From Otis tarda (taxonomy: Eukaryota > Chordata > Aves > Otidiformes > Otididae): a stretch of 64,000 nucleotides of DNA. This document shows, piece after piece, positions 365-63,423 of the stretch; position 1 is the stretch's first letter, and each line of letters opens with the position of its first letter. The translations under genes were made by a program, and so were the position numbers. The stretch is taken from contig CM048552.1 of assembly GCA_026413225.1 (NCBI GenBank), positions 61,395,001 to 61,459,000 on the forward strand, written 5' to 3'. The notes beneath the pieces were generated by a model, which did not search any database, was not told where the DNA came from, and saw only the letters and a list, made by a program, of their open reading frames with translations.

Positions 365-1045
365 TCAGAACCAGCTGGTGAAGTCGAGCAGCTCCTGCTC
401 CTCGGGGCTGAGGGGGTCGTAGGAGGCCTCGTCGGAGGAGTAGGAGGAGACGGGAGAGCCGGCCATGGAGTTCATGTCGTGGGAGTAGCTGGGGGAGATG
501 GTGGGCGAGAGGACGCCGGCCTGGAAGGCGGCGCTGACGGCGTCGTGCTCGTCGAGGAGCTGCTGCAGGGCGCGGATGTACTCGACGGCGGAGCGGAGCG
601 TCTCCACTTTGCTCATCTTCTTGTTGGCCGCCCCGTTGGGGACGTGCTCCCGCAGGGTGGCAAAGCCCAGGTTCACCAGCTTCACCCGGTTGCGCTCCCG
701 CTCGTTCCGTCGGGCCACCGCCGCCGGTTGCTGCTGGGGCAGGCTGTACCCGAACCCGCTGAAGTTCAGCCGCCGCTTGCAGCGCATCAGCTCCGGCGAG
801 GCCGAGCGCTGCCGCTTGCCCGCCCGCCCCGCCGCCGCCGCCGCCGCCGCGGGTTTTCCCCCCGGTGAGGGCTGCCCGCCCGCCGGGCTCGGTTGCCCCG
901 GCGGCCCCGGCGGGGGAGGAGGAGGAGGAGGAGCGGCGGCGGCGGCAGCGGCGGCGGCCACCGCGGCGGCGAAGAAGCAGGCCGGTTGCAGGAAGGGCGG
1001 CTGCCCGGCGCCGCTGGCCATCCCGGCGGGGCTGCCGCTGGCCAT
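365..1045 (-). CDS. ASCL1: Achaete-scute family bHLH transcription factor 1
   Basis: Intronless coding region of 226 residues for the proneural bHLH activator that forms E-protein heterodimers and binds CANNTG E-boxes in neural progenitors. From the N terminus: [14 protein letters not shown], a poly-Ala run (about residues 26-38), poly-Pro (39-46), another Ala run (65-72), the family block [20 protein letters not shown], and then the bHLH (about 112-168) with basic [11 protein letters not shown] and helix [18 protein letters not shown]. The C terminus ends [14 protein letters not shown]. Human ASCL1 is 236 residues and has a poly-Gln tract where this copy has Ala/Pro. The start is the first in-frame ATG (1045), with G at +4; a second in-frame ATG lies eight codons later. 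The frame is open upstream of 1045 but without another ATG. It is divergent from PAH. Confidence 0.97.
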
Positions 1046-10034: not shown

Positions 10035-49399
<39,365 letters not shown>

Positions 49400-55261: not shown

Positions 55262-55468
55262 ATGAAGACTGACTTGATGGGGATCTCAGGCCAAAAGGAA
55301 GAGGCCAGCAAGGAGAAAGAGATGCATGGCATGGAGTCATTGAACAGCCGAGGCAGCCTGGACTCGGGAGGATGGGAGAGAGAAGATGGCAGAGCCACTC
55401 TCTTCCTGACCCTCACTCTCTGCAATGTGAGGAAGATGGAGCTCTCCAAGGCAGCCAAAGTCTTTGAG
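55262..55468 (+). CDS. TH2: TH2-like exon with regulatory-domain start
   Basis: From the ATG at 55262 it encodes 69 residues. These are a polar, acidic/basic N-terminal stretch ([20 protein letters not shown]) and then [20 protein letters not shown] and SKAAKVFE, which match the first strand and helix of the TH ACT domain. Donor GAG|GTATGG in phase 0, as in TH. The ATG context is weak; a better one is at 55331 (residue 24, G at -3 and +4). The frame stays open upstream, and a phase-0 acceptor-like CCTCAG ends at 55210, so an upstream first exon joined at 55211 is possible. No RRxSLIED phosphorylation motif is present. Confidence 0.75.
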
Positions 55469-58400
55469 GTATGGACCTCATCATTCCCTTCCTCCACTGA
55501 GCCCTCTCTTCTATCCCTACTGCCTTTACCTCTCCCACTTTTCATCTCCCCCTCTCTCACCCCTCTCCTGCTCCCTGCCTGACTTATGCCTCCACCTGCC
55601 TTCCCTCTCTCTCATTGTCCTTGTTTTACTACAGCTGCTCAGAGAGGTTGGCTGGCCTCTCCAGATGAAGAAGGAAAGTGGTTTGGAGGGAGGGAGCAGC
55701 TGGATGCAGTAATTTAGAAGAATCACCATTTTATGTAAGGGCTGTTCAGAGCAGATACCAATCTATTATTTCTTTTTAGCAGTTGTGGTGGCCAGTCATG
55801 ACTAAACAACAGGCCAGCATTTCAAGCACTCAGATTGTGAGGATGTTAGAAGCCAATGAATTTTGTCTGCATATTTGGCAGGAGATATAGAGAATACAAG
55901 AGCTGTAAACCATACAGGCATTGTATATTCTGACCACTTGAAATATCCCTACCAGGTGCTCACTCTCATCTGTGAAAATGAATGACTCAAAAGAGAAGTA
56001 TTATATTTGTTACTTATTTTTAATCGCTTGCAATTATTTAATGATTATGGTGTTATTATACATCAATAGATCTGCTTTCATTCTGCCAGGGTCTTAAGAG
56101 TTACCCAGACACTCATTCGTTATTTCTGCACAGATTAAATGCTACAGTCAGCAGTATCTCATCTTTCATCTCCATCTATCTCTACCTAATTCTACAGTGT
56201 TTCATCTTTAGCTCTGCCTGTATTTTACTTCCTAAACTGGGCATTATTAGGCTTCATTGCTCAACACGCATTTCTTATTAAGACCTCTTTTAGTCACCTT
56301 TTAAAGACATTGTAGAAGTGTATCGAGACTTACCTGGATTTTCAGTCTTTGGAGAAGCTTCATCATATGAATATCTGGCTCTTGCAGATGTTTGAAACTC
56401 AAATCCATCACTTTGAAACCAGACGAGCCAAAAAGCCCAAGAACTCTTCTGATGATCTTGACATCTTTGTTGCATGTGAAGTTCACAGTGCTGATGTTAG
56501 CATCCTTATCACTTCCTTAAAGACAGTAGCAGAGGATGTGAAAACTAGCAGAGAAGACAAAGGTAAGAAATGTATGCATCTGTTAGTGCTGTTTTGTTTC
56601 TTTTTGGAATAACTCTTTTTTTTGGCATTAACTTCATAATAGTGATTTAATTAGTCCGGAAAGCAGGTGAGGATGCATTCTTTTTTCATCACTGTGTGAC
56701 TGTTTTTCCTGAATTTAGACCATTCCCATTGGTGTGGAAAGGGAGGCACTTTGTCATAGCCAGCGGAACTGAGGTGATAAAGGCGTTCCAGCAAAAAGGG
56801 AGATGAGAAGGATAGAGCAGTAAAACAAGAAGCTGAGGAGAAACTGGAAACTCCTCAGTCACAGGAAGATCAGGGGCTAGGAGCTGAGAGCTGTGCAGAG
56901 AACAGGCAACTCTGAGGCAAACACAGACACTTGGTGGGAGGGCAATGATACAGCAGAGGGTCTAAATGTTTCATTTGCTTGTACTGGATTGTGTTGGTTT
57001 TGTTAAAAGAAGCAGTAGCTGTTTGTTCATGGTGTCCTCTGCCGTCTGGGTCCAGTAGTATTGTCTGTAAATAGATTGCTTCTTCACTGAAAAGAGTTAA
57101 ATGCAACCAGCTTGAGGAAGCTTCCAGAGTGCAAGAGGGAGAGAGAGTCAGCAGAAAACCAGGGGATGAGGTTTTTGTAGAGAACAGACCTACTGCCAAA
57201 TCTGGAGTAACAGAGGATCAGGCATTTTCCCAGGAACCTGAAAAGTATGTTTGGAGGTTGTGTACCTTTAAAGGTCACAGTTTAGGAACAGTATTTCACC
57301 TGGCTAAGTGCTGCAAGTGGCTACTCCACTGTCTGTGCTGTATTTGAGTCACCATACCTACCAGTCATCAGGATGGAAAGTGAGTTTGCCAGAGGCAGAC
57401 TGATATTTTTCCTGTTTACAGGCAGGTAGGGGATTAGTGAGTACAGCAAGCTGTTAGAGACCTTTAATACAACCCTGAGGATGCCAGAGGTGCTCCTGAT
57501 AGATGAGAAGGCTGAGGGTCCAGCTCATAGGTTGAGTTGTCTAAATACAGGATTGGCATGAGGTTTCCCACCCTTGACAAGGCTAGGCACAAATCCTCAG
57601 GGCCCGTTTAGCTAATACAGTCCTGTTTGGACACCTTTAGGTGTTGCTTGAAATTCACCTTCAGTCTAGCAATGAGAGGCAGTTCATGATAAGCTGTTCT
57701 CAGGGGCTACGGGGATATCAAGACAGTATCACTGTCACCAGGGAAACTGAAGAGCCAAAAAGAGTTTTGGTGCTGAAGAAGCATTTCTTTACGATTTTCT
57801 GGGGAGTTGAGATGTTTGTGCTCAGAAGTAGCAGTTAGTTTCAGGTGTGCTGGGACTGGAATCTACAATAAAAACAGGGGACTTTTAAAATAGGATGTGT
57901 TTATGGTTAAAGCAGAGAAGTATTAGAGATATAATTTTCTTCACAACTTCCTTTTTCTTATTGTTCTAAATAGCAATCATAAAAGTAATCAGGCTTGTTT
58001 TGGACGTAATGATGCTAGAATTAATATACTTGGCATGAAAATGGCCAGACTCTTACCTCAGACTTACACACAGTACTCCTTAGTTTGTAATCTTTTTTGG
58101 GTGTTTCAGACCCCAGAATTCAGTAGTGTCCTAAGAAGTTTATTTGATTTAAAGATGAAAAGGTCAGAGAGTCAGTATTTGTGGTCCACAGGTCCACCTT
58201 AGGTGTGGCCATCAGCAAGAACTGGGAATTTGGAGGTTTTGGCCTTAAAGATCTTTGTGGTTTTGGTCCTATTGAGGTGAATTCAAGGATGCTAAAGTGT
58301 CAGAGGACTTTTAGCTCAGCTAGCCCCTAGGTCTAAGACTGGCTAGTGGTGCATTTTACTGGTGTATTTTATTGAAAGTGGCAGTGCATCTTGTTGAAAG

Positions 58401-61400
58401 CTAGCTACAGCTTCACTTTCTACTGGCGTTTGCAAATGCCTACGAGAGCATATTGGTAACTAAGAGATATCTAAGTTGTATAAACATGCTTGCTGGTCAG
58501 CAGTTATTTTACTGGGAAGATGCAAATACGTACATTCTGGCTACACCCTGTAACCCGAGGCTCCAGCTTCTGGATTAATCTGGTTTTTAACCCACACGGA
58601 CTTACTATTCTTTTCTTTGGAGTTTTAAGGTGAGCCAGACAGGCCTACCCAGGCAGTTTGCTGAAGAACAGTGATGAGATGATGCCCTTCCTGTAGTGGC
58701 TTTAACCCAAATTTTTTTTGGTACTCAGTTGAGAAAGCAGTGGTTATCTCTGCTTCCATGAAGCAGACACAGATGCAGCCAAACTGACATCTGTCAGCAC
58801 TATCCCTGTTTTATTGGCTGCATCTGTTTCTGTGACCAAGCCAAAGGTTCTGCCATGGTCCTTCCTCTTCTCTCCCTTAGACTGTCTGCCCTCTCCCTGG
58901 AGTCAGAAAAGGATGGGCAAGATGTGTATGGGGATATACAGTGGGGGACTTATGATCAGGTACAGATTTTCAGGAGATACAGCCATAGATGGCAAGATAG
59001 GCATCTTGCATGCAGAATCATTGGTACAGCTGAAGACAAAGGCTCAGCAAAAAAAAAAAATCCAGGGTGATGCAAGACATCTGTCAGTCTTGTATTTCTT
59101 TGTTCTTAAAGCAGAATTGGCCATAGTTGCATGAAAAAAATGGAATTTCCCAGCACCAGTGTGTATTTGTAGCCTTGTACCTTTGTGAACTGGCTGTGCC
59201 TGGATATAACATAACAGGGCTAAAGCTAAATTTGCCATTCAGTATAGAGATATCTAGTCTCTCGTCCAGTATGAGATTAAGATGACTCCGAACAGACTTT
59301 TTCTGAGCTGTAACAAGCTAAGTCTGATCACAGCATCAGTTTGACTCAGTTTGACCTCAGAAAGCAGTATCAACTTGGTATTTTTTCAGTATTTTTTAAA
59401 TTAGTTGGTTATAAATGCTGGCACATAAATTAAAAGGAGCACACTTTATTTTTATTTTATTCACCAGAAAAGGTCACCACTTCAGGGGAAGGAAACTGTT
59501 TGGAAATTCAGCTAATGCTAGAATAATTTTGCTGAAAAAAAAAAGGAGCCAGAAGGAAAAAACTTGAAATCAGGATACTTCCTGGCCTGTTTTGTTTCTA
59601 GAAATGTCATATTTTCTTTCTAAACTGTGTTTTCACTTCTAAATGTATGAAAATTTAAGACTACTTTTTAGACAAGACCAAAATATTTTCCTAAATACAA
59701 AACGTAGAAATACATTTGCTGTGCTGTGTCAAACAGAACATCTGATTTGGCTTAAAAGAAATCTTTTTGCCTTTAAAAATTGTTTCTCCTAATGAAAACG
59801 GAGAGATTATCACTGCAGGTTAATTTCAGATAATTTTTCACCCAGTCTGCCAGCTTGGTTGGCAAATTATGTCAACTGCTGGCGTGTGGTGACGTGTAGA
59901 TATGAATATTCTTAGGCATTGATGAACAGAAAGCTTATAATCTTCAGCACAATTATTTTCTATGTCTTAAAAAAATATTTTATTCTATCTCATTTGACTC
60001 TTGTTGCTTTCTCTCCAGTGCCCTGGTTCCCCAGAAAAATCCAAGATCTGGACAAATGTCACCATCTGATCACTAAGTATGATCCCAGTTTGGACCATGG
60101 TCACCCTGTAAGTTTGATGTTACTGTTATTTCATTTTTCAAAAAGAAGGTTTCTGTAGGGAAATTTTTGTAAGGAAAATTTCAGGAGTAAAGAAAGAGTC
60201 AGGAAAGGACAGAAAAAATGAAGGATCAGATAAAGGCTGATCTTCAACGGAATTAGGGAGTATGTAGTAATGAGAAAAGCTTGTGGGTCCTGATTCATCA
60301 AGGTACACATGATTAACATCAGACACATGCCGAAGTGATTTCTATTCAACACATTCTTTAGCACAAGTTTATATTTCATTGTTTAGTTAAAAAAAAATCT
60401 CTTGTTTATTATTTCACCTCTGATATATTTGAAGTATGTCCACTTTGTGCTAGCTGGTCCACATAAGAGTCAAGTTCCCCAGCATTCTGCTTTTTGCGTT
60501 TTCTATGTTTTGACCTTTCAGATATTCCATATCTACATTTTTAATTTTCCACATGCCAAGAATCTCATTCAAGTGCAGATGTAAAGAGGATAGTAATGAG
60601 GACAAGTGGCAAAGAGCTAGTCACTAATAAATACCAGATTCTCAGGTCTCACAGAAGGGAGTATTATGCTTAAACTTGCAAAAATCATCTAGACAGAAAA
60701 GACGACAAATACACGGCAGAGCCGATTAACGGATATAATACCCGAACAGAGATTTAAATGTGACTAGAGAAGCTCGAAAGTTCTAGACATTTCAGTTGAG
60801 GTAAACGTCTAAAATTTAAATAGGAAGCAAGTTGGAAAGATTATAATCCTAATTTACATCTGACTTTTCATAAGGTCTTTGGAGTCAGGATTTTGGCAGT
60901 ATTTATTGACAGCCCTCTGCAAAATACTATTAGAATGCTTGTGATGGGCTTTCCCTTGGATTCAGGCAGTAGGTCTTGACTAAATGGGCCTCAGAAAGAG
61001 CTTTCCTCATAATAGTTTTGTATGTGTACTCTTAGGTTTGCCATAAGCACAAACTCTAGAGAAGGAAGAGCAAAAAAACACTCTAGAGTTCTGCTCAAGT
61101 GATGATAATAATAAGGCAAAGTACTGGGAACAACCAAACAAACCTTCATTTCTCATCAAAGTTTTCTAACTTTAGCACAGATGAGATATGAGTTAGGTAC
61201 AGACAAATAAGAGACTCTGAAGGGCCATTTGCTGACTGCCAAGGTAGGTCACAGAATTGTTGTGAAGTGTTCTGCCAAGCATCACACAGAAATGATGCAT
61301 GAAAAGGAAAAGAAGCACAGACTTTGCACTGAAAAATGCGAAGAAGAATTGGGTGGATGTCAACAGAATCTACAAAATTTTGTCATTCCCTTCTCCAAGT

Positions 61401-63423
61401 GTCTGAATTCTATTTAGACTCTTTAATTAACCTACATAATGTTAATGTTGTAGTGATGTACAGTCCTGTGTGATATAAAAAAAAAAAACTTTACAAGTTG
61501 ATCTTCTATTTTTAAGAATCACTTATCAAACTATAATGCTCTAGGAAAGCTTCATATCCTCCTTATCAAGGACATCTTTCATTCTTCTTCACATCTTTCC
61601 TATAGAAACAATTCAAGTATTGGTCGTTTTCCTGAGCTAGCTCTGAGGCTGTTTCTCGTGAGAGAAATGAATGCACATTGGGAATTCTTTGAACTGGGCT
61701 AAGTTCCCCTCTTACTTTGCCAAACAGGTGTGGGCAGTGAAAAGGATGAGAGAAAGCACTAGCAGTGCTTACCAAAGTATTGACTGGAGATAACTCTAGA
61801 CTGCAGAATTCAGTGCAATGTAGAAATACCTAAACTAGCTTGAAACAAGTTAGCTCAGGCACTGAAAATAATTTGTCTGCGGCAGGAGGGAGCACAATGC
61901 GGGCTCATTTACTGTGCTGCTGAGCATGGCTCAGAAATGGACAGGCTGGAAGAAACTACGAAATATGCTGAAGTACAGGTAGCTCAGCAGAGATTTTGCA
62001 TATGCATTTACTACCAAATAGGCAGTTTGGCTATGAATATCAACACCTTCACTTTGTTCTTTACTGTCTCTTTAATGGCCAGAAAAGCAAACAGATGACA
62101 CTGTGACACCAGTCTCTGAGGTACCCTGACACTGGCTGTAGCAGTCCCCCAGGGAGGCTTCTGCTGCTCAGCGGGTGGGTACAGAGCCCTGGGAATGGCA
62201 GGGACAAAGCTGAGAGGTCACAGCATCAACGCTAATTTGGCCCAACGGCTTTTCCACGTATTTTGCATGGACTTGTTACAGTTACTGACAAGCAAGGGTG
62301 GCATCTGAATGAACGAACATATTATCCATAACACATGACAAAAATAAACATGCTTTTAGGATCCAGTTCTTTCCTCAGATTCATGCACACAATATTCATT
62401 AACTGCACTATTACTGGTATTATTGCTACACTGAAAATTATGTGAATAAACCTAAGGGAGAAATTTGGCTTGTAGAATGTAAAGTGGTTCCAGTAAATTC
62501 TGAATATTTTAGAATAATAAATATTTGTACAGTGATGCTGATCAACGCTGCTTTATGAGTTATAGCAACACAGTGCCAGATTTCAGACTTTATCCCTATT
62601 ATGAATGATGTAAAATTCAGAAGAATTTGATTTCACATGTCTATTCGCATTTAATAGCTGGATAAGCCTACTTGAGATACTGGGGGGGTACAAAGAAAAC
62701 TCTGATATTTAATAAGTAAATTGCCTGTTTAAACAGATGCCACTGAATGTGTCCTTATCATAAGATGATCATAAATGGACAAAGGGGAATGGAGCTGAAA
62801 GCCTGTACTTTCTACAGATTCAGTGGCAGCTCTAATGATTTCTAGCCAGTGAGGACTAGTTCTTTGCCCAAAGTGCCGGGAACTGTGCAGGTGTACTTTC
62901 TCTGACAAGGTAGTACTACTCTTGGTACCATCATGTTCACCACAACCCTATATTGCAACCTTTGTCCTTAACATAGGAAATAAAATATTCAGAGATTCAG
63001 CTCTTCCCAGTGTGACACCCTTATTTCAATTACATTTTAAATGTAATTTGCATTTAAATTTGACTGTAAGTGTAATGGTCTGTGATGGAGTGCTTACAAA
63101 CAACTCCAAAACCTTCCCACCAAGGCATGTTACTTTCCTTTCTGGTCACAGGCCCCAAATTTTCATCAAAATGTCATTAATGCAACCGATTGCAGACTTT
63201 GGCTTACTCTGTTCATAAGGATCAAGATTCATTGCCTCAGAGACAACAACCTATTTGAGGCCTAGATTTTTTCTGATTGCTTCTGTTAGCAAATTTATTT
63301 CTGCTCACAAAACTCTCTTAATGTAAATCTGCTTTTGAATTATTTTCTAACTCAGGGATATGATGACCTGGACTATAAGAAACGGAGAGCATTCTTTGCT
63401 GACCTTGCCTTTAATTACAGAGA
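55262..63423 (+). CDS. TH2: Tyrosine hydroxylase 2-like aromatic amino acid hydroxylase (5' part, continues off right edge)
   Basis: A second AAAH gene in tandem with PAH. Four exons give an ACT-type regulatory domain and the start of the catalytic domain. TH hallmarks: SKAAKVFE at an exon end joined to [11 protein letters not shown] (TH has AVKVFETFEAKIHHLETRP), [10 protein letters not shown] before VPWFPRK, and [13 protein letters not shown] (TH: LDKCHHLVTKFDP). PAH has LDRFANQIL and TPH has LDHCANRVL at that place. Exons 3 and 4 seen here are 89 and 68 nt, as in PAH. Junctions are clean and no break is seen, so the gene looks active. TH2 is known from fish, amphibians and birds and is absent from placental mammals. 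It should hydroxylate tyrosine to L-DOPA, although zebrafish Th2 has been reported to act on tryptophan. The catalytic residues lie outside the window. The start is uncertain. Confidence 0.88.
55469..56387 (+). other. TH2: TH2-like gene intron
   Basis: 919 bp, GT-AG. Starts with a pyrimidine-rich stretch (about 55480-55620) and becomes AT-rich. Nothing else was recognised. Confidence 0.8.
56388..56562 (+). CDS. TH2: TH2-like exon, remainder of ACT domain
   Basis: 175 nt, phase 0 start and phase 1 end. Encodes [20 protein letters not shown], then [20 protein letters not shown] and [17 protein letters not shown]. It aligns to TH exon 3 (FEAKIHHLETRP, then LEYFVRLEV, then VSEDVRS). It is 9 nt shorter than PAH exon 3 and has the same phase. 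Acceptor GGCTCTTGCAG, donor AAAG|GTAAGA. Confidence 0.92.
56563..60018 (+). other. TH2: TH2-like gene intron
   Basis: 3.5 kb, GT-AG. Unique sequence with no recognised transposon, and AT-rich towards the 3' end (59390-59990). Confidence 0.8.
60019..60107 (+). CDS. TH2: TH2-like exon, start of catalytic domain
   Basis: 89 nt, the same length as PAH exon 4. Encodes [20 protein letters not shown] then [16 protein letters not shown] is a TH-specific signature. Acceptor TTTCTCTCCAG, donor CCT|GTAAGT. Confidence 0.95.
60108..63355 (+). other. TH2: TH2-like gene intron
   Basis: 3.2 kb, GT-AG. AT-rich unique DNA with no recognised gene or transposon. Confidence 0.8.
63356..63423 (+). CDS. TH2: TH2-like exon, catalytic domain (last exon in window)
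   Basis: 68 nt, the same length as PAH exon 5. Encodes [20 protein letters not shown] then YR plus GA, the first two bases of a codon completed in the next exon. Acceptor TTTTCTAACTCAG, donor GA|GTAAGT. The next exon (PIPRVEY region) is not found before the window ends. Confidence 0.93.

Follow-up and report, generated by a model that had tools for sequence, protein, structure and literature searches.

Background

According to the available portion of PMC6585609, bony vertebrates have two tyrosine hydroxylase (TH) genes, TH1 and TH2, the second having been lost in placental mammals, and the first-pass annotation of the locus described here, which placed TH2 in non-mammalian vertebrates and its loss in placental mammals, agrees with this source. 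TH2 transcription was located there in hypothalamic cells contacting the cerebrospinal fluid (CSF) of chicken and Xenopus, the chicken cells containing TH2 RNA without TH1, and weak TH2 RNA was described in some cells of the chicken midbrain. TH2 is probably the reason why the CSF-contacting cells hold dopamine though the common TH antibodies miss them (same portion of PMC6585609).

The window analysed here comprises 64,000 nucleotides of the Otis tarda genome (C1:61395001-61459000) and contains the first four identified exons of a TH2 gene. The gene is already known, and so is its placement beside PAH. TH2 of chicken, frog and zebrafish is in the literature, and its RNA is reported from the chicken hypothalamus, which makes the present copy an ordinary orthologue. 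It is almost certainly the orthologue of chicken TH2, with at least 12 coding exons; it has been kept in the interval from PAH to IGF1 and is likely an ohnologue of TH1. The gene is open and full-length, and TH1 and TH2 are found in two matching chromosome blocks; the points of interest are a missing regulatory block and a GC donor in exon 6.

Gene structure

The four exons of TH2 inside the window are all on the plus strand, and the positions first given for them and for their three junctions were right to the base. The first coding exon of the model (55262..55468) is an open frame running to KVFE and a GT donor. The second (56388..56562) holds the bulk of the ACT domain and the site of the chicken TH2 forward primer, the third (60019..60107) encodes a stretch of 30 residues, 22 of them identical in human TH and 16 in the PAH of the same genome, and the fourth (63356..63423) is the start of the catalytic domain, with the Xenopus th2 forward primer lying over the junction 60107/63356. 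Spliced together they comprise 179 codons without a stop. The three complete introns are GT-AG in all cases, with cumulative phases of 0, 1 and 0, and a phase-2 donor is present past 63423. The spliced product matches Pfam TH_ACT with 120.2 bits (cut-off 27) at residues 44-113, encoded by exons 1 and 2; it also matches Biopterin_H, over the first 51 positions of that model, with 65.6 bits (cut-off 22.7). The ACT domain and catalytic start of TH type previously read on the PAH strand are borne out by these matches and by human TH being the best solved relative. The distance from the PAH stop, put at about 5.9 kb, is 5,862 bases between the stop (49397-49399) and 55262. Rfam searched at its gathering thresholds gave 0 matches.

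The ATG at 55262 is a candidate start of TH2, the first exon being uncertain. Exon 1 aligns with the TH1 exon of this genome that starts with a given run of 10 residues; an intron is located directly 5' of that homologous exon, and an acceptor-like site in phase 0 ends at 55267, near the ATG of TH2. No first exon similar to that of TH1 turned up in the 5.9 kb upstream of TH2 exon 1, where the best E was 0.51, or in the 3.7 kb upstream of the TH1 exon beginning SPRFIG, where it was 2.3.

The assembly of the window (1,198,220,595 bases in 116 contigs) contains eight further TH2 exons downstream, up to C1:61483101 (extended coordinate 88101). In extended coordinates these are exon 5 at 64643-64693, exon 6 at 68417-68562, exon 7 at 75088-75223, exon 8 at 75873-75942, exon 9 at 77630-77686, exon 10 at 80742-80837, exon 11 at 86228-86361 and exon 12 at 87942-88101. 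The CHELLGH and WFTVEFG exons, anticipated to the right of the window, are present among them and in frame. The joined frame comprises 462 residues followed by a stop, and matches human TH chain 6zvp_D over nearly its full length (positions 28-455).

The first-pass annotation had called the gene intact, which stands for the open frame of 462 codons, with a reservation for exon 6, where the donor is GC. This donor, AAG/GCCAGT at 68562/68563 (C1:61463562), is located 4.6 kb past the window and is the sole exception among 11 TH2 donors, GT being found in the other 10; the corresponding exon end has GT in PAH, TH1, TPH1 and TPH2 of the same genome. It may belong to a working GC-AG intron or be a splice lesion. 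In the latter case the gene would be TH2 by descent with its function being lost in this genome, the change from GT to GC hampering correct splicing. Such a loss appears improbable, although the donor also has C at +3, the four paralogues retain GT, and in-frame open GT donors are available 54 bases before and 93 bases after the exon end. Between -140 and +400 of this end, three other donors are compatible with an open frame (GT at -54, GT at +93 and GC at +102). Use of the first would drop 18 residues of the catalytic domain and use of the second would add 31 residues to it, while the conserved LKERTGFQL joint is given only by the AAG/GC end. This joint, the GT of the remaining donors and the open frame argue against a loss. 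AG/GC introns are a functional minority class, and positions -3 to -1 and +4 to +6 of the exon 6 donor presumably agree with the splice consensus.

Relationship to the other aromatic amino acid hydroxylases

The Biopterin_H matches of this genome, at least 35, form five clusters of 7: PAH (C1 61.428-61.444 Mb), TH2 (C1 61.455-61.483 Mb), TH1 (C6 20.33 Mb, with human TH as best match), TPH1 (C6 16.72 Mb, 122/143 against human TPH1 5l01) and TPH2 (C1 40.64-40.69 Mb, 126/143 against TPH2 7wiy and 96/143 against TPH1). TH2 contains both domains of the animal aromatic amino acid hydroxylases, the ACT regulatory and the Biopterin_H catalytic domain. Trees and structure ranking place it nearest to TH, over PAH and TPH. 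The genome has TH1 as well, and TH2 is a second TH gene that falls outside the TH1 clade.

The solved structures ranked by the window part of TH2 were human TH (E 1.9e-41), TPH1 (7e-21), TPH2 (1.6e-19) and PAH (3.9e-16). The full tree comprises eight sequences, five from this genome and three human ones, with SH-aLRT and UFBoot as support values. TH1 of this genome and human TH are grouped without TH2 (97.1 and 96, respectively), and the THs, TH2 included, are separated from PAH and TPH with 100/100, so that TH2 is not within the TH1, PAH or TPH of its own genome, an outcome in favour of the annotation. When the window part alone is aligned with PDB chains, a shorter comparison, TH2 is grouped with human TH at 99.8/100. 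The branch of TH2 is long, at 0.41; the lengths from the same node are 0.22 to the TH1 of this genome and 0.33 to human TH.

The identity of TH2 is 64% with the TH1 of the same genome and 59% with human TH; with the remaining five sequences it lies at 50-52%, PAH having 52%. For reference, the identity between TH1 and human TH is 78%, and that between PAH and human PAH 84%. The window part is identical to human TH in 66 of 142 positions and to PAH and TPH in 45-51 of 133-134. Exon 4 taken alone gives no pointer to TH, being short and nearer to TPH1 (13/22) and to the adjacent PAH (12/22) than to human TH (10/22). Exon 1 likewise resembles TPH1 (11/26) more than human TH (12/32). Columns typical of TH only, those in which TH1 of this genome equals human TH and the residue is absent from the five PAH and TPH sequences, are shared by TH2 in 50 of 106 cases; the corresponding figures are 8/77 for PAH-only and 6/58 for TPH-only columns. 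Positions invariant in the other seven sequences are kept by TH2 in 134 of 154 cases, in the range of the other genes of this genome, each compared with its non-orthologues: TH1 138/149, PAH 137/155, TPH1 143/168 and TPH2 146/168. The NCBIfam equivalog TIGR01269 (tyrosine 3-monooxygenase) was the top of 7 listed models for TH2, with 637.7 bits, below the curated 654.65; TH1 reached 743.5. TH2 seems to be related to TH without belonging to this equivalog, which appears to be tuned to TH1-like proteins. This score, the long branch, the affinities of exon 4, the GC donor of exon 6 and the narrow margin of the Xenopus th2 reverse primer count against the orthologue reading.

That the exons belong to TH1, or to a PAH or TPH duplicate adjoining PAH, has practically no probability. 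The position beside PAH fits a duplicate, and the introns of PAH and TH2 are found at the same codons and phases in the four sites compared (after FE, within the Val codon of VPWFP, behind HP, and two bases past the NYR codons). However, TH2 joins the THs in the tree, outside the pair formed by human TH and the TH1 of this genome, and a separate TH1 gene is located on C6 amid ASCL2-like and IGF2-like genes, on another contig and with other neighbours than TH2. Both candidates were rejected on the tree and on this separate locus.

Correspondence with chicken and Xenopus TH2

The link with the TH2 genes of other species was made through the chicken and Xenopus primers, the tree containing sequences of this genome and of human. 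Primers for chicken TH2 (XM 001235000.3) and Xenopus th2 are given in Table 2 of PMC6585609, and were matched with the spliced TH2 plus 400 bases and compared with the TH1 and TPH1 loci. The chicken TH2 reverse primer matches TH2 in 20/20 bases, with at best 15/20 in the TH1 locus and 13/20 in the TPH1 locus. The forward primer matches 15/20 in exon 2, in register, and 13/20 in each of the other loci; the remaining 5 of its 20 bases mark the difference from chicken TH2, as compared by primers, and make chicken itself improbable as the source. For Xenopus th2 the forward primer matches TH2 in 16/20 over the junction 60107/63356 (14 and 13 in the other loci) and the reverse primer in 14/20 (13/20 in both the TH1 and TPH1 loci). 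Three of the four TH2 primers are thus best in TH2 by at least 2 bases, and the remaining one by 1 base.

As controls, the chicken TH1 primers match 16/20 and 18/20 in the TH1 locus, with 12 and 14 in TH2. Of the chicken TPH1 primers, the forward one matches TPH1 in 21/21 and TH2 in 18/21, within a motif shared by the family, and the reverse one matches the TPH1 locus in 16/21. The Xenopus th1 primers reach no more than 14/20 in the TH1 locus. With eight primers compared with the window part on both strands and 300 shuffles of each, the counts of the chicken TH2 forward (15) and Xenopus th2 forward (16) primers were never reached by shuffles, and these are the sole such primers of the eight.

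Catalytic residues and substrate

Two His and one Glu, which we take to be the iron ligands, are identical in the eight aligned sequences, TH2 among them. Asp at the position of human TH 424 is confined to human TH, TH2 and the TH1 of this genome; both PAHs have Val there, and all three TPHs have Ile. TH2 therefore has the iron ligands and this specificity residue in common with TH1 (the C6 copy and human TH 6zvp), in contrast to the adjacent PAH with its Val. The Asp (rat Asp425) presumably decides for DOPA formation; a literature search for the role of Asp425 found no paper. The predicted enzyme would be a tetramer dependent on iron and tetrahydrobiopterin, converting L-tyrosine to L-DOPA, and would be expressed mainly in hypothalamic cells contacting the CSF, without TH1. 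TH2 would be a second route to catecholamines, judging from these residues and from work in chicken, Xenopus and zebrafish.

Ren et al. (2013) reportedly proposed a tryptophan hydroxylase role for zebrafish TH2. Such an activity in practice is very improbable for the gene described here. The proposal is cited in the available portions of PMC6585609 and PMC3850071, in the latter through an unnamed reference, and some chicken cells coexpress TH2 RNA and TPH1 (PMC6585609). However, TH2 has the TH-type Asp at the human TH 424 position, against the Ile of the three TPHs, and its TPH-only columns are far fewer than its TH-only columns. According to the same portions of the sources, the claim lacked independent verification in 2013 (PMC3850071) and found no support in later studies (PMC6585609). 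A tyrosine hydroxylase is the reading retained for TH2.

Regulatory region

The helix formed by residues 39-58 of human TH is held in the active site by dopamine and freed by phosphorylation of Ser40, and is likely conserved from fishes to primates, according to the available portion of PMC8748767; the 'TH2' of that work is a human splice isoform, different from the gene described here. TH1 on C6 carries a 25-residue stretch in this region and keeps a 10-residue block (Ser31, Ser40). The homologous exon of TH2 (55262-55468) reads a different 32-residue stretch without this block, and contains no RRxS site and no alanine-rich helix. An additional upstream exon could add residues to TH2, yet the site of TH1 is contained in the exon compared.

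Since the TH2 counterpart of the exon carrying R37, R38, S40 and the 39-58 helix is devoid of RRxS site and helix, TH2 might be a tyrosine hydroxylase that lacks the dopamine-feedback module known from vertebrate TH1. In the CSF-contacting cells, inhibition by the end product would then be weak, and Ser40 phosphorylation would bring no release. This is suggested tentatively, as a possibility with somewhat less in its favour than against it. A literature search for TH2 with Ser40 found no paper. If TH2 genes in general are without the Ser40 block, the regulation of dopamine synthesis would be different in the CSF-contacting cells.

Genomic neighbourhood

The coding frame of ASCL1 is located at 365..1045 on the minus strand, open from MASGSPAG to a final 12-residue stretch and a stop, and its bHLH stretch was found in the genome search at the same position. 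It is head to head with PAH, which comprises 12 coding blocks at 14303..49399 on the plus strand, delimited by tblastn blocks and flanks. The blocks are counted as exons 2 to 13 on the assumption that PAH has a 13-exon structure; exon 1 of PAH was not located in a crude scan. IGF1 is found at C1:61620391-61658180, 137 kb past TH2, and the resulting order ASCL1-PAH-TH2-IGF1 confirms TH2 as directly downstream of PAH.

The block ASCL1-PAH-IGF1 with TH2 is presumably common to other species in this order. A second block is present on C6, where TH1 (20.33 Mb) has an IGF2-like gene at 20.27-20.28 Mb on one side and, on the other, at 20.411 Mb, an ASCL2-like gene that matches the ASCL1 bHLH stretch at 84%; the names ASCL2 and IGF2 derive from match order and position. 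The blocks ASCL1-PAH-TH2-IGF1 and ASCL2-TH1-IGF2 are mirror images of one another, a pattern to be expected of ohnologues; a literature search for TH2 synteny found no paper. In the available portion of PMC2841823, th1 and th2 are put down to the teleost duplication. The presence of TH2 in this genome and in chicken speaks for a split older than that duplication.

The introns of PAH contain a long AGAA/GGAA tandem array at 42354-43234 and, at about 40900-41300, what we take to be a fragment of a reverse transcriptase similar to that of CR1-LINE elements.
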